Shown here in pieces: positions 40,645-48,858 of a stretch of 64,000 nt of DNA; the stretch's first letter is position 1, and every line of letters begins with the position of its first letter. A program made the translations under genes and the position numbers. The DNA lies in contig NZ_AP027731.1 in NCBI RefSeq assembly GCF_030296595.1, forward strand, positions 124,001 to 188,000, in the 5' to 3' direction. A model generated the notes under the pieces. The model saw only the letters and a program-made list of their open reading frames with translations. It made no database searches and was not told the DNA's origin. This DNA is from Naasia aerilata. GTDB taxonomy: Bacteria; Actinomycetota; Actinomycetes; Actinomycetales; Microbacteriaceae.

Positions 40645-41748
40645 TCAGGGGTTGATCGCGAGGAAGACGAACGCGGCGAGCAGGATGAGGTGCAGCACGC
40701 CCTGCAGACGCGTCACCCGCCCCGGCATCACGGTGAGGATGCCGACGAGCACGGTCAGCACGAGCAGCACGATCTGCGTCGAGCCGAGGCCGAGGGTCAG
40801 CGGGCCCGGCAGCCAGATCGAGGCGATCGCGATCGCCGGGATCGTGAGGCCGATGCTCGCCATCGCCGACCCGTAGGCGAGGTTGAGGCTCGTCTGCATC
40901 CGCTCGCGAAGGGCGGCGCGGGACGCGGCGAGCCCTTCGGGCAGCAGCACGAGCAGCGCGATGACCACACCCACGAACGAGCTGGGGATCCCCGCCGCCG
41001 CGACCCCGGCCTCGATCGCCGGAGAGACCGTCTTCGCGAGCCCGACCACGGCGACGAGCGAGACGACCAGCAGTCCCCCGCTGATCGCCGCTGCGCGCCC
41101 CGACGGAGGAGCCACGTGATCCTCCTCGTCGTCCGGCTGGATCGACTTCCCGGAGGCGGACACGGGCAGGAAGAAGTCGCGATGCCCCACCGTCTGGGTC
41201 AGCACGAACGCGACGTAGAGGATCAGCGAGGCCACGGCGGCGAAGCCCAGCTGCGACGGCGAGAACTGCGGCCCCGGCCGGCTCGTCGTGAACGCGGGCA
41301 GCACGAGGGTGAGCGTGGCGAGTGCCGCCACGACCGCGAGCGCCGCCCCCGCGCCCTCCGAGTTGAACCGGGGCAGCCGGAAGCGCAGCGAACCGAGGAG
41401 CACCGCGAGGCCGGCGATGCCGTTCACCGTGATCATGACGGCGGCGAAGACGGTGTCCCGGGCCAGCGTCGAGGTGTCCTTCCCGCCGCCCGACACCATG
41501 AGCGTGATGATGAGGCCCACCTCGATGACGGTGACAGCGACCGCGAGCAGGAGCGAGCCGAAGGGCTCTCCCACCCGGTGGGCGACGACCTCGGCGTGGT
41601 GCACCGCGGCGAGGACCACCCCGACGAGAACGAGGCCGACGAGGACCACGAGGACGCCGGGGAGCTTCTGCCCCCAAGTCGCGATGAGCGCGACGGCGCC
41701 GACCGCGGGAATGCCGGCGCTCCACCAGCGTCGGATCCATGCCGTCAT
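40645..41748 (-). CDS. ChaA-like Ca2+/Na+/H+ antiporter
   Basis: 367 residues with about 11 membrane spans in two related halves, the CaCA superfamily plan. The first half carries HHAEVVAHRVGEPFGSLLLA with the conserved acidic residue, and the second LLVLLPEGLAASRAA. Between them lies an acidic cytosolic loop (QPDDEEDH). ChaA exchanges Ca2+ or Na+/K+ for protons. The ATG at 41748 is chosen for the GGGAG 7 bases upstream; a TTG at 41799 begins a longer frame. Confidence 0.9.
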   Translation of the reverse strand: MTAWIRRWWSAGIPAVGAVALIATWGQKLPGVLVVLVGLVLVGVVLAAVHHAEVVAHRVGEPFGSLLLAVAVTVIEVGLIITLMVSGGGKDTSTLARDTVFAAVMITVNGIAGLAVLLGSLRFRLPRFNSEGAGAALAVVAALATLTLVLPAFTTSRPGPQFSPSQLGFAAVASLILYVAFVLTQTVGHRDFFLPVSASGKSIQPDDEEDHVAPPSGRAAAISGGLLVVSLVAVVGLAKTVSPAIEAGVAAAGIPSSFVGVVIALLVLLPEGLAASRAALRERMQTSLNLAYGSAMASIGLTIPAIAIASIWLPGPLTLGLGSTQIVLLVLTVLVGILTVMPGRVTRLQGVLHLILLAAFVFLAINP

Positions 41749-41841
41749 TCGGTCACTCCCGGCGCTGGGCCTTCCGGCCTCGGACGTCTGAGCATCCAAC
41801 CTATCGGGTGGCCCTGGACGGCGGCCCGACGCGTCCGGTGC

Positions 41842-42023
41842 TCAGGCGGAGGCGTCCTGCGTCGTCAGCGCCTTCTCGAGCCGCTCCACCTTGGCCGTGA
41901 GCTCGCCGCTGTATCCGGGCCGGATGTCCGCCTTGAGTACGAGCGAGACGCGCGTGCCGTACTGCCCTACCGCCTCCGCCGCCCGGCGGATCACGTCGAA
42001 CACCTCGTCCCACTCACCCTCGA
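41842..42023 (-). pseudogene. 3' half of thiamine-binding (MTH1187/YqgV-type) gene, split by an island
   Basis: Codes for the C-terminal half of a small thiamine-binding protein: EWDEVFDVIRRAAEAVG, RVSLVLKADIRPGYSGEL, ending QDASA. Reading upstream, similarity stops at EGEWDEV, in the CCCTCGA core at 42017-42023, and the frame then hits a stop near 42049 with no start codon. The missing first half is at 46500-46644. It is about 80 % identical by eye to the intact copy at 45167-45487. Together with 46500-46644 it formed one gene between the GT87 gene and the antiporter. Confidence 0.9.
42017..42023. repeat. island boundary, left core CCCTCGA
   Basis: The 7 bases CCCTCGA occur here and at 46500-46506. 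Joining the outer flanks through one copy restores the thiamine-binding reading frame (TTIEG-EWDEV), so these are the ends of the inserted DNA. Confidence 0.8.
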
Positions 42024-42081
42024 GGGCAGAGAAAGGGGCCTTGCCCTACTTTTCCTTCGCCACCACGAGAGGAGCACCACC

Positions 42082-42395
42082 ATGAACGTCGTCGGTTACG
42101 TCCGCCTGTTCCGCGCTTCCCGGGAGGAGAGCACTCCCATCGTGCGCCAGCGCGAGGTGATCGCTAGGACCGCCGAGTCGCGCGGATGGCAACTTGTTGG
42201 CATCGAGGAGGACAACGACACGTCGGCGACGAGACCCGGCTGGACCGCCCCAGACTGAACCGGGTGCGAGAGCAGATCGCCAGCGGCGCGGCGAAGGCCG
42301 TCCTCGTCTGGCGCCTTGACCGCATGGCACGCAGCGTCGTGGACTTCGGCACGCTGCCGGACCAGGGCGTTGAGGTGATCTCCTGCACGGCTTAG
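42082..42395 (+). pseudogene. serine recombinase (large serine integrase type), truncated
   Basis: Residues from the ATG at 42082 (GAGAGGAGC upstream) match the start of actinobacterial/phage serine integrases: NVVGYVRLFRASREESTP, RQREVIARTAESRGW, GIEEDNDTSA. After a frameshift near 42235 the resolvase domain goes on as RLDRPRLNRVREQI and AVLVWRLDRMARSVVDFGTL. The catalytic Ser region near the start looks altered (VRLFRASREES, where VRVS is usual). The gene stops at 42395 after the resolvase domain; the recombinase and zinc-ribbon domains needed for integration are gone. Its position next to the left core is where an integrase gene normally lies. Confidence 0.8.
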
Positions 42396-42995
42396 CAACC
42401 CTCTGCGGATGCGCTCGCCGCTCGGATTCTCACCGCACGCCTCCACGCTTCTCAGGCCCTCTCCTGTGCCCCAATTCGTACCCTGAAAGGAGGCGGCACC
42501 ATGGCCGCCGTCACCCCTCTCCCCACCCCCGAGCCGGACCCGGCCCCCACGCTCTCGCACGAGCCCCCGGCCGCCCTGGTCGGAGACCGCTCGGGCGACC
42601 TTCTCCGACGCCGTCGCCGAGTTCCCCGCCCCTGGACCCCGCCACCCTCGCCGAGCCCTACCAGGCGTGCGCCCTGATCTCCCGCGGTGGACGCCGACGG
42701 CGTCGTGTCCGTCGGAAGCATGGGCCAGCCCGTGCCGCACCCCCTCGTCGCCGAGGAGCGCCTTCACCGGACGCAAGCCGTCGGCGCGCTGAAGGCGCTC
42801 GGCCTCGCTCTCGGCGCTGGCCCGCGCTCGGCGTCCTCGTCCTCTCGGGCTGGCGCCGCCCTCGCCGGTTCCCGCTGGCGCGGTCAGCACGCCTCGCGTC
42901 TGGAGGCGTCGTCGGCACCTCGCGTCCGTGCCGATCGCGCGTGGGACCGAGTCCGTCTAGGACCCTGGAACCCGCGCACCTCCTACGCTGGCCGC
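42396..42995 (+). pseudogene. degenerate phage-like stretch, possible terminase small-subunit remnant
   Basis: An ATG at 42501 has a perfect AAAGGAGG site. Pieces in different frames read TLSHEPPAAL, ATFSDAVAEF, LDPATLAEPYQACALIS and GVVSVGSMGQPVPHPLV followed by GALKALGLALGA. That order, above all GSMGQPVPHPLV, is like P27-type phage terminase small subunits. The frame changes do not follow the single-missing-base pattern seen elsewhere, so real decay is likely. The identification is tentative. Confidence 0.35.
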
Positions 42996-43121
42996 ATGGA
43001 CGACGACCTCGGCGAGATCGGCACGCCCTCGTGCCCGGGGTGTCTCGTGCCGCGGGAGGCCGAGGGCGACGCCCGTCCCCGCTGGCGCTGCCCGTCGTGC
43101 AAGCTCATCGTCCTCGCCTAG
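42996..43121 (+). CDS. 41-residue zinc-ribbon protein
   Basis: MDDDLGEIGTPSCPGCLVPR, then a CPSC pair near the end: two CxxC knuckles 18 residues apart, enough to bind one zinc. TACGCT stands 6 bases before the ATG, a leaderless arrangement. Tiny proteins of this kind are frequent in Microbacteriaceae. Function unknown; it could belong to the island or to captured host DNA. Confidence 0.6.
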   Translation: MDDDLGEIGTPSCPGCLVPREAEGDARPRWRCPSCKLIVLA

Positions 43122-43201
43122 TCGGCGTGCCCACGGGTGCCCACCCAATAGCCCCCGTAGAGTCCGCCCATGGCTCTTCGCCGACTACGAGAGGCCCGCG
43201 A

Positions 43202-44908
43202 ATGAAGATCGAATCTGAAGACATCGACATAGAAAGCATGCTGTCTGGTCGCTACTTCAAGATTCCCAGGTTCCAGCGGCCGTACTCCTGGGATGACGAG
43301 AACATCCAAGACCTTTGGGACGACGTCATGGCGGCGAAGGGCGAGGACTACTTCATCGGATCGATGGTTGTCTACCGCGGCGGCAAGCAAGCCTTCAGCC
43401 TGGTAGACGGCCAGCAACGCCTTACCACAATCACTGTATTTCTATGCATCTTGCGTGACGCATTCGCATCCCTAGACGAGGTCGACCTCGCGGCAGGCAT
43501 ACATCAGCTCGTCGAGCGCCCGAACCGGGACAATCAGAACGAGTTCGTGCTTCAAACCGAGACCTCGTTTCCATTCCTTCAGGAACAGATTCTGAAGTTC
43601 GGCGACCCCGACCTCACCGACATAGTCGAAATGTAAGAGGAACAAGCGCTACGCCAAGCGCACTTCACCCTGAGCGCCAAGGTCGCTTCGGTTCTGACAG
43701 CAGTCGATATCGACGATTCCATCTCAGAAGACGACAAACACACCGCGAAGGTTGCTCGCCTGAAGAAGGTTCGGGACTCCGTGTTCAACCTGAAGGTTAT
43801 CTTCGTGAAGCTGGAGAACGAGGATGACGCGTACCTAATCTTCGAGACACTGAACACACGAGGCAAGGACCTCGCCGTCACCGACCTCGTGAAGAATCAC
43901 TTCGCGAAGCTACTCCGGTCAAAGAACGCGGTGGATTCGGTGAAAATCAAGTGGAGCACGATTCTGGAAACCATCCACGAGTCGGCAGCCGACATAAACA
44001 CCGACTCATTCATCTACCACTTCTGGGCCTCCCGGCATGAAGCAGTACCGGCGAAGAAGCTCTACCCGGTCGTCAAGAAGCGGATCGATGCCAAGAACGC
44101 ACGCGTCTACCTTGACGCCCTAGTTGAAGACTCGAAGCACTACCGCGCCATCCACGAGCCTTCCTTCCGATGGGAGAAGGCCGAGCGGCGCGCAGCCAGT
44201 TCGCTGTCGGCGATCCAGCTGTTCAGGCTGGTGCAGCCAACACCCGCTCTCCTATCCCTCGTGCGGGCGTACAACGAGAAGAAGATTCGACTGAAGACGC
44301 TCGTGCGCGCATTGGAGGCAATCGAGAACTTCCACTTTGCCTTCACCGCCGTCACCTCATCCCGCTCGTCTGGGGGCATATCTGGCATGTATGCGTCGTT
44401 CGCGCGGAAGTTGTACGAGAGCCGGAACTCCGCGGAAGCGGGCGTCGAGATCGATGCGTTCATCAAGAAACTCCGCGAACGCCGCCCGGACTACGACGAG
44501 TTCGAGGTTGCCTTCAGGCAGATCGGGTATACGAACGCCAACACAAAGCAGAAGGGGCTCGTGCGCTACATCCTCCGACGTTTCGCCGAGCATCACTCCT
44601 ACAAGTTCGCCGTGGACTTCGACGACCTCACCATCGAGCACCTTGCCCCACAGTCATTGATCGGAACGGACCCCTGGAGCGACGAGACCGTCGGCGCACT
44701 CGGCAACTTATTCCTGATCGATCAGAAGATGAATGGCGCCCTCGAGAACAAGTCGTTCAACGTCAAGGTGAAGATGTTGAGTGACGGGCGGTACAGCGTG
44801 CCGCAGTTCATGACTCTTGCCGATTCATGGACACCGGAGAAGGTTCGTCTTCATTCGAACGCGATGGCTCGGGAGGCCTACGACGCGATCTGGAGCATTC
44901 CCAGCTAG
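43202..44908 (+). pseudogene. DUF262/DUF1524 (GmrSD-like) restriction-type gene with an in-frame stop
   Basis: If read through, a 568-residue protein. The N-terminal DUF262 part has IPRFQRPYSWDDENIQDLW and LVDGQQRLTTI (the DGQQR nucleotide-binding motif). The C-terminal DUF1524 part has the HNH-like IEHLAPQS followed by GALGNLFLI. GmrSD-type enzymes are type IV restriction systems that cut modified phage DNA. A TAA at 43634-43636 interrupts the gene after residue 144 without any frame change; the ATG at 43781 could restart a 375-residue C-terminal piece. Codon use is clearly less GC-rich than in the flanks, a sign of transfer. GAGAGG precedes the ATG at 43202. Confidence 0.85.
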
Positions 44909-45166
44909 CGGAACGGATTACCGGGTCCGACTCGATCAGGTCGGGCAAACCGCCGAGGGGGAAGTCCGAACCAGGATCGACGATCTAATCGACGGGCTTC
45001 CGGAGCCGCCGCACGTGATCGTGTGGATGGACACCGTAACGCCTACTCGGGCGACGTGCTCGCGGTGGCACGAGCATGTGAGGCCCTGGAGCACCCGATC
45101 CAGGTAGCGACGTTCGTAGCTGTTGGATGAACTGAACTGAGGTTCGGACCTCCGTCCGTCGTCTTC
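44909..45166 (+). other. remnant or non-coding stretch in the island
   Basis: Broken frames reading YRVRLDQVGQTAEGEVRTRI, then PEPPHVIVWMD and VLAVARACEALEHPIQVATF suggest the 3' end of an older gene with at least one frame break. I do not recognise it. Confidence 0.3.
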
Positions 45167-45487
45167 CTAGGGAAGGCGGACTTTTTCGGTATGTAGCGCC
45201 GCCTCCAGCCGTTCCACCTTGCCCGTAAGTTCGTCAGCGTGCCCCGGCCGAATGTCCGCTTTCAGCACGAGCGAGACCCGCGACCCATACTCACCGACCG
45301 CTTCGGTCGCGCGCCGGACAACGTCCATGACTTCGTCCCACTCGCCTTCCACGGTCGTAAACATGGCGTCCGTGTGATTCGGCAGGCCCGACTCGCGGAC
45401 GATCCGCACGGCCGCCGCGACGGCGTCATGGACCGAACCGTCGGTCCGACCGGTGCCGCTCGGCGCTACCGAGAATGCAAGCAGCAT
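45167..45487 (-). CDS. thiamine-binding (MTH1187/YqgV-type) protein, intact island copy
   Basis: 106 residues, complete. [47 protein letters not shown] and RVSLVLKADIRPG match the small ferredoxin-like family that binds thiamine or HMP. About 80 % identical by eye to the split host gene on either side of the island. Its stop and start are intact and it begins 16 bases after the stop of the deoxyribosyltransferase-like gene, so the two are probably cotranscribed. It may supply the function lost through the insertion. Confidence 0.88.
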   Translation of the reverse strand: MLLAFSVAPSGTGRTDGSVHDAVAAAVRIVRESGLPNHTDAMFTTVEGEWDEVMDVVRRATEAVGEYGSRVSLVLKADIRPGHADELTGKVERLEAALHTEKVRLP

Positions 45488-45503
45488 GACTTTCCAGTCC
45501 CTT

Positions 45504-46439
45504 TCACTGCGTCATCCGGAGGTACGCCAATTCCCGAGCACGGAAGTCGCGAATCTTCGACAGGAGAAGCTCACGGCGATCCATCAACTTCGCGCGCTCG
45601 GTCACGACGCCCACTACACCTTCGGGCGTTCCGCTGACCTCTGTGCCTGCGTCTTCGATCGAGAGGGAGAGGGAGTCGAGTTGCGCCTCCACCGTGGTGA
45701 GGTCGGCCTGGAGCGCTCCCAGCCGACGCTGTATTGCCCTCAGCTCTTGTCCAGCCGCGGAGTCGCCCGAGCGCCCTGCCCCGCTGTCCCAGGTCCAAAT
45801 GCCTCCAGTCTCATACACGGCGGCGGGGGCCAACGAACGCCGTTCCATGCGGCCCAGGCGCGTCGACAAGTCCTGAAGGGCTAGTGCGATCGCGTCGTTG
45901 GAGTCGCCACCAGCGCCGCCCGTGGCGATCGCCGCGAAAGCGCCGTAGGCGGTTAGGGGTGTCCGTGGCGGACCATCGGCCTTCTCTAGGTGGGCTGCAC
46001 TCATTCGAAGAGCCTTGATCGCCCCGTCCACCGATGCTGGATCCGTGAGTTCATAGTTGATGGCTCGCTGATCTGTCACGTCGAACGGAATCGTCTGCCC
46101 CTCACGAATCATGAGTATGAGCGGCTTCTGGTAGCCGTGCGCAAGCGCGACTTCGTAGAACACGTTTGGATTGTGATCAGTGAGGTCCGCGACGATCAGG
46201 TCGCTCTTCACAATCCGATCGATCACCTGCGTCGTGATGGAGTCGGGTGCGCTCTCCTCGTCTGCCCTCACAACGAACCAATCCGGCTCTCGAAATGCCT
46301 TCTTGATGACGTAGTCCAAGACGAGCTTTGCAGCGTGATGCTCGGCTGTGCCCGGTCGGCCGATCGGAGAGATCACGAAGAGCGTCTTGGGGGCGGCGTC
46401 AGGCTTCTTCGCGCTCGGTCGTTCCGACTTCTCCGTCAC
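45504..46439 (-). CDS. nucleoside 2-deoxyribosyltransferase-like protein with coiled-coil tail
   Basis: 311 residues. The first 150 match the NDT-like fold found in many defence and signalling islands: LFVISPIGRPGTAEHHA, TTQVIDRIVKSDLIVADLTDH (its Asp pair is typical), NPNVFYEVALAHGYQKPLI and PFDVTDQRAINYEL. The second half (residues 190-300) is rich in heptad-like Leu and charged residues, probably a coiled coil for oligomerisation. Relatives act on nucleotides such as NAD or serve as effectors, but the activity here is unknown. The GTG at 46439 has AAGGAG 6 bases upstream. Confidence 0.78.
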   Translation of the reverse strand: MTEKSERPSAKKPDAAPKTLFVISPIGRPGTAEHHAAKLVLDYVIKKAFREPDWFVVRADEESAPDSITTQVIDRIVKSDLIVADLTDHNPNVFYEVALAHGYQKPLILMIREGQTIPFDVTDQRAINYELTDPASVDGAIKALRMSAAHLEKADGPPRTPLTAYGAFAAIATGGAGGDSNDAIALALQDLSTRLGRMERRSLAPAAVYETGGIWTWDSGAGRSGDSAAGQELRAIQRRLGALQADLTTVEAQLDSLSLSIEDAGTEVSGTPEGVVGVVTERAKLMDRRELLLSKIRDFRARELAYLRMTQ

Positions 46440-46499
46440 AGCGCTCCTTCGTTACCCGAATGGCGCCGATCCTACAGACTCCCTTTACCCGCTATCGTG

Positions 46500-46506
46500 C
46501 CCTCGA
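46500..46506. repeat. island boundary, right core CCCTCGA
   Basis: Second copy of the 7-base core, at the point where the host gene's first half ends. Confidence 0.8.
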
Positions 46507-46644
46507 TGGTCGTGAACATCGAGTCGGTCGAGTTGGGCAGACCGGATTCGCGGACGATGCGGACTGCGGCCGCGACCGCGTCGTGGATCGAGGCGTCCGG
46601 GCTCCCTCCCCGCTCGGGGACAGCGAGAATGCGACGAGCATCAT
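46500..46644 (-). pseudogene. 5' half of the split thiamine-binding gene
   Basis: Starts at an ATG overlapping the stop of the GT87 gene and reads [14 protein letters not shown], then, after adding one G in a G run near 46604, [18 protein letters not shown] and [11 protein letters not shown]. Beyond the core the frame enters island DNA and ends within a few codons. With 41842-42023 it makes one complete gene of the same family as 45167-45487. Confidence 0.88.
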
Positions 46645-47918
46645 GCCTCCTTCATCAGGTCGTGCGGCTCCTCGTCGAAGAGGCTCTCCTCATCCTCGTC
46701 GAGGTCCGGGCGTCCCGGCAGGAGCCAGAGGATGCGCACCGACAGCACGAGCACGACGACGAACGCGAGGTTGCGGACGGTGAGCACGGCGGCGCCTCCC
46801 GGATCGGCTCCGATCACTTTCGCGTAGCTCCACGGATACACCACCTGGGTCAGCAGGGCGATCCCGAGGGCGAGCGCGGCCGGCACATGCACGGCTCGCT
46901 GGCGAAGGCAGAGCCCGAGGACGACGGGCGCCGCCAGCCAGGCCACGTACTGGGGCGAGCCGACCTTGTTGAACACGATCATCGCGAGCACGAGGGCCAG
47001 CCCGAGCGGGGGAAGCAGCGCGAGCGGATCCACCCGGCGGCTCATGCCCCGGAGGGCGAGGAGCAGGAGGGCGGCGACGGCGGCGACGAGCAGCGGGGTC
47101 ATCGCCGCGGCGGCGGCGGAGGTCCCGTTGCCGAGCACCTGCCAGGTGAGGATGTCCCGGTCGTAGTAGATGCGCGTTCCCCCGAGGCCGAGGACCGCCT
47201 CCCACAGCCACCACGACGTCACCGGCGCCTCCACCTGCAGGCCCCGCGTCTCCTGCGCCGAGATGAACGTGAAGACATGGGCGCCGGCCCCGAGCAGCAG
47301 GGCGCCGCCGAGGATCGCGACGGTCACGAGGGCACCGCCCGTGAAGACCGCGGCTCGTCGGCGCAGGGTGAGCACCGCGGCGGCGAGAAGCGCGGCCGGC
47401 CACACCTTGATCCACGCCCCGAGCCCCAGCAGCGCGCCGGCCAGGACCGGCCGGGCCGAGAGGACCAGGAGGCCCAGGATGGCGAGCGGAGCGGTCACCG
47501 AGTCGAGTCGCGCCACGGCGACCGGACCCAGTGCGGCCAGGAAGGCGACCCACCACCAAGCGGCCGCGGGGCGGCGGCGGAGCAGGGCGTGGAACGCCAC
47601 GGCGTCGAGCATCGTCACGAGCACCAGCCAGACCACCCCGTAGGCGTCCGAGCCGAACAGATACGCGAACCCCAGCGGGAGGAGTGCCCCGACCGGGTAG
47701 ACCCAGGAGGTGTCGATGCCGACCAGGACGCCGTTGGCGGCCGCGTAGTCCATCCAGAACCGGTACACCCCGACGACGTCCCCGAACGGCAGATGCACGG
47801 TGTCGTGGAGGTTGATCTCGGCGAGCACCAGGTGCACTGCGGCGAACGCGATCCAGGCGCCGAGCGCGCCCGTAACAATTCGACGTGCGCTCCCCCACCG
47901 GCCCTGGGGTTCGGTCAT
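46641..47918 (-). CDS. GT87-type polyprenol-phosphate mannosyltransferase-like membrane protein
   Basis: 425 residues with about 10-11 membrane spans. The periplasmic loop after span 1 carries [21 protein letters not shown] and [14 protein letters not shown], the arrangement of GT-C enzymes of family GT87/DUF2029, where an acidic residue in this loop is catalytic. A late segment reads [16 protein letters not shown], also typical. Likely uses polyprenyl-phosphate mannose for envelope glycolipids. An acidic tail ([14 protein letters not shown]) ends at a stop overlapping the thiamine-binding start. Confidence 0.85.
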
Positions 47919-48001: not shown

Positions 48002-48858
48002 ATGCCCCTGTCCCGTATCCGGATCGGCTCCGTCGCCGCCGTCGTCGCGGCCACCGCCCTCCTCGCGGCCTGCGCTCCCGCGTCCTCGAGCGGCGGACCC
48101 GGCTCGAGCCCCGCCTCCGACAGCGGCTACGTCACCGACGGCAAGTTCACCGTGGCAACAGGCGAGCCGGCCTACTACCCGTGGGTGATCGACGACGACC
48201 CGGAGTCCGGCAAGGGCTACGAGGCGGCGGTCGCGTATGCGGTCGCCGACCAGCTCGGCTTCGCGAAGGACGACGTCGTCTGGGTGCGCACGAGCTTCGA
48301 CGAGGCGATCGCGCCCGGTCCCAAGAGCTTCGACGTCAACCTCCAGCAGTTCTCGATCACGCCGGAGCGGGCCGAGAACGTCGACTTCTCGACCCCCTAC
48401 TACGAGACGACGCAGGTGGTCGTGACCACCGGTGCGTCGAAGGCCGCCGACGCGTCCTCCTCGCCGATCTCAAGCCGCTGCTGGTCGGCGCGCAGACCGG
48501 CACCACGAGCTTCAACGCCGTGGAGTCGGAGATCGCACCCGATGCGGGAGCCCAGGCCTTCAACACCAACGAGGACGCGGTCCTCGCCCTCAAGAGCGGC
48601 ACGGTCGACGCGATCGTGGTCGACCTGCCCACCGCCTTCTACATCTCGGGCGTCGAGCTCGACGACGGCAAGCTGGTCGGCCAGCTGCCGCAGCCCGAGG
48701 GCGCGGAGCCCGACCGCTTCGGCTTCGTGCTGCCGAAGGACAGCCCGCTCACGAAGAAGGTCAGCGACGCCGTCGACGCCCTGCGCGAGGCGGGCACGCT
48801 CGACGAGCTGGCCCAGGAGTGGCTGGCCGACGCGGGCGACGCGCCTGTCCTCAAGTGA
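48002..48858 (+). CDS. polar amino-acid ABC transporter substrate-binding lipoprotein, frameshifted
   Basis: About 285 residues after adding one C near 48459-48460 (ADASSLADLKPLLVG restored). Lipobox LLAACA with Cys at residue 24, then a class 3 solute-binding fold: ATGEPAYYPWVID, KGYEAAVAYAVADQLG, NLQQFSITPERAENVDFSTPYY, GAQTGTTSFNAV. Family members bind polar amino acids such as glutamine, arginine or cystine. It is the first gene of a three-gene importer operon, divergent from the GT87 gene. Confidence 0.92.

Follow-up and report, generated by a model that had tools for sequence, protein, structure and literature searches.

How can an integrating element afford to enter a protein-coding gene of its host? 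The question is raised by the 64,000-nucleotide (nt) stretch of Naasia aerilata DNA analysed here (NZ_AP027731.1, positions 124,001 to 188,000; hereafter the window), in which a thiamine-binding gene (PF01910/DUF77), on the minus strand between a GT87 gene and a gene for a ChaA-type exchanger, is cut by a 4.5 kb island that holds a complete gene of the same family. From the anatomy of this island, its recurrence in other genomes and the gene order of free phages, we consider it very probable that the island is a decayed relative of phages and phage-like elements that carry a full replacement of their target gene, altered where the element attaches. We conclude that phages and phage-like islands have repeatedly acquired such a full replacement with an altered bacterial attachment site (attB).

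A split thiamine-binding gene and a complete homologue

The 5' half of the host gene (46500-46641, minus strand), whose reading frame is broken by one base close to its start, is cut after the codons for ...FTTIEG, and the 3' half (41842-42026, minus strand; PF01910, expectation value (E) 5e-6) lies beyond the island, bearing out the split described in the original prediction, which was made from the letters of this stretch. The intact relative placed by that prediction between the halves is a full PF01910 protein encoded at 45167-45487 on the minus strand (E 6e-27; 93.9 bits against a cut-off of 24.9, positions 2-91 of 92), whose relatives in the PDB include MTH1187, TM0486 and MJ1052. Thiamine-binding matches in the whole genome are exactly three: the two halves and this copy. 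Copy and halves are homologous, as predicted, at an identity slightly lower than the 80% judged by eye (76.3% over 156 nt and 78.3% over 92 nt of DNA). The copy begins 16 nt behind a 311-residue gene (45504-46439) on the same strand, a spacing that makes the suggested cotranscription with an island gene, as one operon, plausible.

Both borders have the form expected when one attB recombines with one phage attachment site (attP) to give the two hybrid junctions, attL and attR. At the 3' half (approximately 41998-42045) a host arm is followed by GAGGG and an element arm in which CCCCTTT begins 17 nt from GAGGG; at the 5' half (approximately 46475-46525) the element arm has AAAGGG 13 nt from GAGGG. 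These are the spacings of the attP of phage Ascela, where CCCCTTT starts 17 nt before GAGGG and AAAGGG lies 13 nt after it. The heptamer CCCTCGA, proposed as the recombination core, does stand at both borders (42017 and 46500), with a third, chance occurrence inside the island at 44739; as a conserved core it did not hold, since the junctions of two Curtobacterium elements described below (G298 and C. luteum) have only GG or GGG in common. With an intact homologue inside the insert, the halves outside it and an uninterrupted attB in relatives, the island has the make-up of a serine-integrase element that carries a replacement of its target. Of the integrase itself, residues 1-103 of about 479 remain, in two frames (42082-42392, plus strand; PF00239, E 3e-7 for the second piece; 58-67% identical to four relatives), and the window holds no complete large serine integrase.

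The loss of some 376 of 479 residues is firmly a genuine truncation and not a sequencing error, and to that extent the recombinase has decayed as predicted. The single-base lesions (one-base frame breaks in the host 5' half and in the recombinase piece, and an in-frame TAA in a GmrSD-type gene) are weak evidence of decay and may be sequencing errors, because 5 of 25 conserved window genes are frame-broken relative to one congener (one of the five seen through an antisense open reading frame (ORF); 25 of the congener's 36 ORFs passed the identity and coverage filter), and because the assembly is 90.6% complete, compared with 98-100% in seven of the eight congeners and 68% in the eighth. We have therefore dropped decay as a reading of the single frame breaks. 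The spare copy may have let the element persist after its recombinase decayed, as the prediction proposed.

In all eight congeners the site is occupied by a single unsplit gene, behind GT87 and followed by an MFS gene, as the prediction had anticipated for relatives. The GT87 gene (46641-47918, minus strand) lies upstream of the target in each of them, while the ChaA-type gene (40645-41799, minus strand) has the same position in congener G004 only, which shows the exact GT87-DUF77-ChaA-MFS order. The unsplit gene in all eight argues that the island most likely entered an intact gene within the window's own lineage.

Recurrence in other genomes and in free phages

The target gene was matched in 306 of 398 genomes of the family, 12 of which, besides the window, had more than one match. 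Two halves and an intact copy were present in four of these: G373 (Subtercola boreus P27444), G298, G215 and G198 (Cryobacterium sp. PH31-L1). An integrase scan added Curtobacterium luteum NS184 and one Curtobacterium metagenome-assembled genome (MAG) with the same anatomy (together, G417 and G462); all these named genera belong to the Microbacteriaceae. Among 66 Curtobacterium genomes, four had more than one match (G298, G417, G462 and G437, the last with a 5' half and a copy), 60 had one and two had none. In an order-level sample of 149 genomes, two from two other families (G544 and G548) carry the split and the copy. Three blocks of 459-1723 nt are 89.5-95.6% identical between their elements, whereas the host 5' halves differ, and hence the copy travels with the element. 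Islands in which both halves were seen span 3-11 kb. A split without a spare copy was found neither among the 12 multi-match genomes nor among the 66 Curtobacterium genomes, in a check that covered genomes with multiple matches (single partial matches, such as that in G013, lie outside it). Two adjacent halves in G017 and G386 were rejected as frame breaks (assemblies 86% and 89% complete); G087, G245, G280, G343 and G375 had only a weak, distant second match, and G479 has two full genes on different contigs.

Five of the elements (G198, G373, G298, the Curtobacterium MAG and C. luteum) have an open serine integrase of 469-505 residues just inside the 3' half and pointing inward. Three of these integrases were aligned (68% and 61% identity to the first), and the domains of the Subtercola protein (PF00239, PF07508 and PF13408, that is, resolvase, recombinase and zinc ribbon) are those of a large serine integrase. 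A search of the family with the three-row profile, taking the best three or fewer candidates per genome, gave four of 398 genomes at E <= 1e-60: the three elements and a distant integrase in G366, about 42 kb from the single unsplit gene of that genome. The same weak search across the order, again with three rows and at most three candidates per genome, gave none in 396 genomes at E <= 1e-100.

Annotated phages proved more informative. A related integrase is present in 62 records, 48 of them with at least 60% identity; these 48 are Arthrobacter cluster AZ phages (Azeevirinae: Yangvirus and Manhattanvirus) with integrases 60-80% identical to that of the Cryobacterium island. They are whole phages of about 42-46 kb, unlike the islands, with which they have the related integrase and, in nine records, the thiamine-binding gene in common. 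The nine represent eight distinct phages (Elezi appears twice), and the gene is annotated in one record only, that of Elezi. In the three phages read (Elezi, Nitro and Ascela) the spare gene stands head to head with the integrase, 54-64 nt separate the annotated starts, and attP lies in the gap; circular permutation of this order by integration yields exactly the order of the islands. DrManhattan has the same kind of attP, with no spare gene there. Together with the likeness in attP noted above, a viral contig (L104) that bears a thiamine-binding 3' half beside its integrase suggests that the phage integrases use this attB. A scan of viral contigs with the phage thiamine-binding protein gave one partial match, and none of nine viral records found through the integrase had the full gene. 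A faecal contig (MT835505), which carries an unaltered, host-type gene, was set aside.

Islands in tRNA genes rebuild their target through a partial copy. The same usual route could be imagined here, with attP inside an element gene and one junction forming a hybrid intact gene, and one genome at this site looks the part: G199 (L071) has an intact gene and, 0.7 kb on, a 3' remnant (97.7% identity over 129 nt), consistent with a partial-rebuild element or with gene conversion. In the window and nine other integrated cases, however, a leftover host 5' half coexists with a whole copy, and attP is external to the gene in the phages read. For these elements we thus reject a partial rebuild, which is very unlikely as a general account; it may hold for G199, possibly a classical partial-rebuild element at the same site and excluded from our counts. 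Recurrence and the free phages support instead the original proposal of a whole paralogue.

Altered attachment region and origins of the spare gene

We compared divergence within 20 nt of the core (the att window) with that in the rest of the gene. The ratio was 0.82-1.04 in 13 element copies versus 0.49-0.97 (median 0.62) in 60 uninterrupted genes and 0.58-0.69 in six split hosts; copies differed from controls with a Mann-Whitney p of 2.5e-7 over all 13, and of 1e-4 with one copy for each of five lineages. A smaller run with seven copies and 37 controls gave 0.80-1.01 versus 0.40-0.88. Six used sites share the same base at 29 attB positions; there the copies show 2-6 mismatches and the 60 controls 0-5 (median 1), and the four Curtobacterium copies have an extra codon at the core. 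Against a specific alteration, the ranges of copies and controls overlap in both tests, the copies are related to one another rather than independent, and beyond the att window, too, they show higher synonymous divergence. The smaller run left out L016, L021 and L047 (element copies) and L025 and L041 (ordinary genes, removed needlessly), and the larger one L148 and L149 (copies), L158 (window), L133, L142 and L146 (genomes already included) and, again needlessly, L138; L042 (from G199) and the copy-like L044 were kept among the controls, and G215, G437, G544 and G548 have no joined host in these tests. We reason that a working attB on the same molecule as attP, only a few hundred bases away, should be self-destructive; the att region of the spare gene is altered in sequence, probably to avoid such self-recombination and to leave the lysogen no second attB.

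In G280 and G343 (L044, L045) the resident gene behind GT87 has an altered att region like that of the copies, with a weak second match about 1.2 kb downstream; judging from its sequence, it is possibly a replacement copy that has outlived its element.

Trees built without the att window reject a single clade of copies (p of 0.02 in the approximately unbiased test in both runs). The larger tree requires five changes, gains or losses alike, at least four of them on supported branches, whereas the smaller forced only two, and bootstrap values had not settled. The copies fall into groups comprising the window; Subtercola and Cryobacterium; Curtobacterium; G215 with G544 and G548; and the phages. 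The window copy does not group with its own host gene, although its exact placement is weakly supported, and the row nearest to that host gene is from a congener, on a branch without strong support.

These trees bear on the simplest alternative, in which the host gene was duplicated in tandem and an unrelated element then entered one copy. Two homologous genes at one locus would be its natural outcome, and the Curtobacterium copies are indeed sister to, or among, the split host genes of that genus. Such a history is nonetheless exceedingly improbable: the window copy stands apart from its host gene and a duplicate is present in none of the congeners, a near-identical copy is common to G544 and G548 despite different families and contexts, and free phage genomes carry the gene, on which ground we reject tandem duplication for these elements. 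None of the findings that the original prediction had named as speaking against it (the same split without island genes, an empty site with borders away from CCCTCGA, or a copy clustering as a recent tandem duplicate) was encountered where we looked.

The ratio of nonsynonymous to synonymous divergence (dN/dS) of the window copy was 0.04-0.08 in three computable pairs, at high dS (1.4-2.0); over island copies it was 0.03-0.08 where computable, and in phage pairs 0.21-0.23, with one pair saturated and several dS values above 1.

A rescue reading and its precedents

The phage order, with the spare gene and the integrase diverging from attP, suggests how such elements might work. A large serine integrase would recombine attP with attB at adjacent codons for Glu and Gly (47-48 in the window copy) within the thiamine-binding (DUF77/MTH1187) gene. 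Because the free phage is ordered as spare gene, attP and outward-facing integrase, integration would set the spare gene by the host 5' half and the integrase by the 3' half. The spare gene would thereby land behind the host promoter, with host transcription running on into the element; the truncated ORF would stop at or near the spare start codon, complete protein would be made again and the lost function complemented, and the altered att region would keep the element off its own spare gene and leave the lysogen no second attB. In the window, the TIR-like cargo gene lies between 5' half and spare gene, and later truncation of the integrase would have abolished excision and fixed the island. 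From their sequences, the elements thus appear to make good the damage they cause.

The predicted hand-over of translation was followed by tracing the truncated host ORF in its own frame across the junction and taking the gap from its stop to the start of the copy. This gap is -1 nt (one nt into the start codon) in the four Curtobacterium elements, -7 nt (an overlap) in G373, +12 in G215 and +13 in G544 and G548, so that eight of the nine other integrated cases show overlap or a spacing of 12-13 nt; the ninth is G198, where the gene is inverted. In all three phages read the predicted gap is -4 nt (an ATGA overlap). Stop-start coupling between truncated host ORF and copy thus seems to be common, and the position of the copy about 1 kb inside the border, which the prediction had offered as a way to spare the host, is peculiar to the window.

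More broadly, and with slightly less than even confidence, these elements can be read as a natural recoded-rescue strategy: temperate phages and satellites would repeatedly acquire a copy, of the host type, of the gene they attach to, change its att region to escape their own integrase and position it where the cut host ORF can pass translation on to it, a swap that would pay for lysogeny and also remove the only attB, proofing the host against other elements of the same site. Were this so, descendants of the swapped-in gene might remain as ordinary host genes after the element is gone.

Several observations weigh against these readings. Stop-start coupling is not universal, because the G198 copy lies on the opposite strand and, in the window, the host ORF stops ahead of the TIR-like gene with the copy starting 984 nt after that stop. 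No intact integrase of this kind was found in the window or in the stretches read of G215, G437 (19 kb), G544 and G548, elements that may use another enzyme; the same 19 kb of G437 also yielded no 3' half, and in G215 the 3' half is without the junction itself, in an assembly with 9% contamination. The target, lacking a match in part of the family, is probably dispensable in some members. Finally, no thiamine-binding gene was found in 39 of the 48 phage records with a close integrase, and one such phage, Powerpuff, forms stable lysogens (PMC8758107), so lysogeny can do without the spare gene.

The last two points would suit a spare gene that is mere passenger cargo or an accidentally captured host gene, brought near attP by imprecise excision and without a sparing role. 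We regard this as unlikely. The gene recurs at the other seven sites found occupied in scans of the family and of Curtobacterium (G198, G215, G298, G373, G417, G462 and G437) and in G544 and G548, always nearer the 5' half; it derives from several copy lineages; it has the low dN/dS of the island copies; and its att region is shifted, whereas a gene acquired by imprecise excision would be expected to keep attB.

An element that splits a gene while carrying an intact copy has a precedent. The botulinum type E cassette is reported to split rarA and to hold an intact rarA of a different lineage, with further cases in topB and pulE (PMC2764570, PMC4824171, PMC8310154). In that system rarA has been interpreted as a recombination gene directing the insertion, and a plasmid helicase gene is split by the same cassette as well; here, by contrast, the copy occurs in free phages beside attP, with a separate serine integrase, an altered att region and several lineages. 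Streptococcal integrative and conjugative or mobilizable elements with serine integrases (at rumA, hsdM, mutT and traG) likewise insert site-specifically inside protein genes, with direct repeats of 2-21 bp; the portions available describe plain disruption of dispensable genes and no full spare copy (PMC4701971, PMC5704250). Islands in tRNA genes also restore what they interrupt (PMC4383910), through junction sequence where our elements bring a whole separate gene. The recoded-rescue reading works most like synthetic gene drives placed in a target gene together with a recoded version immune to the drive's enzyme (for example PMC7609566), without belonging among them, those being engineered, animal and nuclease-based and ours natural, bacterial and recombinase-based. 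Nothing in the literature searched (titles and abstract openings, with most subscription journals outside it) was found to describe phages or islands of this kind with a spare copy of their target; in the text available, the words thiamine, attP and attB are absent from PMC8758107, and thiamine and attP from PMC10652945. Nor did we find in that literature the form in free phages, the change at the att site, the positioning that would hand over translation, or the repeated acquisition.

The elements thus point to a whole-gene way of paying for a broken gene, in bacteria and in free phages and with several spare-gene lineages, in which the sequence has changed at the expected site of enzyme action. 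Isolated laboratory phages that have or lack the spare gene make it possible to test how elements can afford targets in protein genes, and the spare genes are natural attB variants for mapping the needs of this integrase family.

Other genes of the islands and the window

Defence-like cargo is present in several islands. That of the window includes the 311-residue TIR-effector-like gene already mentioned (45504-46439, minus strand; PADLOC TIR effector, E 4e-10; phrog_3634, of unknown function, E 2e-36), whose product matched no Pfam family, and a GmrSD-type (DUF262) restriction gene (43202-44908, plus strand; PADLOC Orf5, E 4e-146 for the C-terminal part) with its in-frame TAA at 43634-43636. 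An ORF at 42687-43118 (plus strand) was assigned no accepted family in family searches; 34 of its residues weakly resemble a small-terminase-like protein of the Subtercola island (E 2e-4 in a tiny database).

Elsewhere in the window, the substrate-binding protein gene of an amino-acid-type transporter (48002-48858) is frame-broken near 48440, and further breaks occur at about 17350, 18660, 29210 and 32965; these are likely sequencing errors.

An approximately 3 kb element, much alike in the two families that carry it (L160, L161), has, besides its spare thiamine-binding gene, ORFs that by eye resemble a monooxygenase and a flavin adenine dinucleotide (FAD)-dependent oxidoreductase; it gave no integrase match, and only a piece like a resolvase-type helix-turn-helix was seen by eye. 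The cargo of G298 was not resolved by the ORF caller. The G215 island (L069, 5526-10302) encodes a C5 DNA methylase, a DprA-like protein, a weak phosphoribosyltransferase match and a SMEK-domain protein, a defence-like set, and a second, poorer 3'-half-like match lies further out. In the Subtercola island (L067, 8880-9239 and 9730-10533), a small-terminase-like protein (terminase-small-subunit-like match, E 2e-6) and an AbiJ-type protein hint at a phage satellite with defence cargo.

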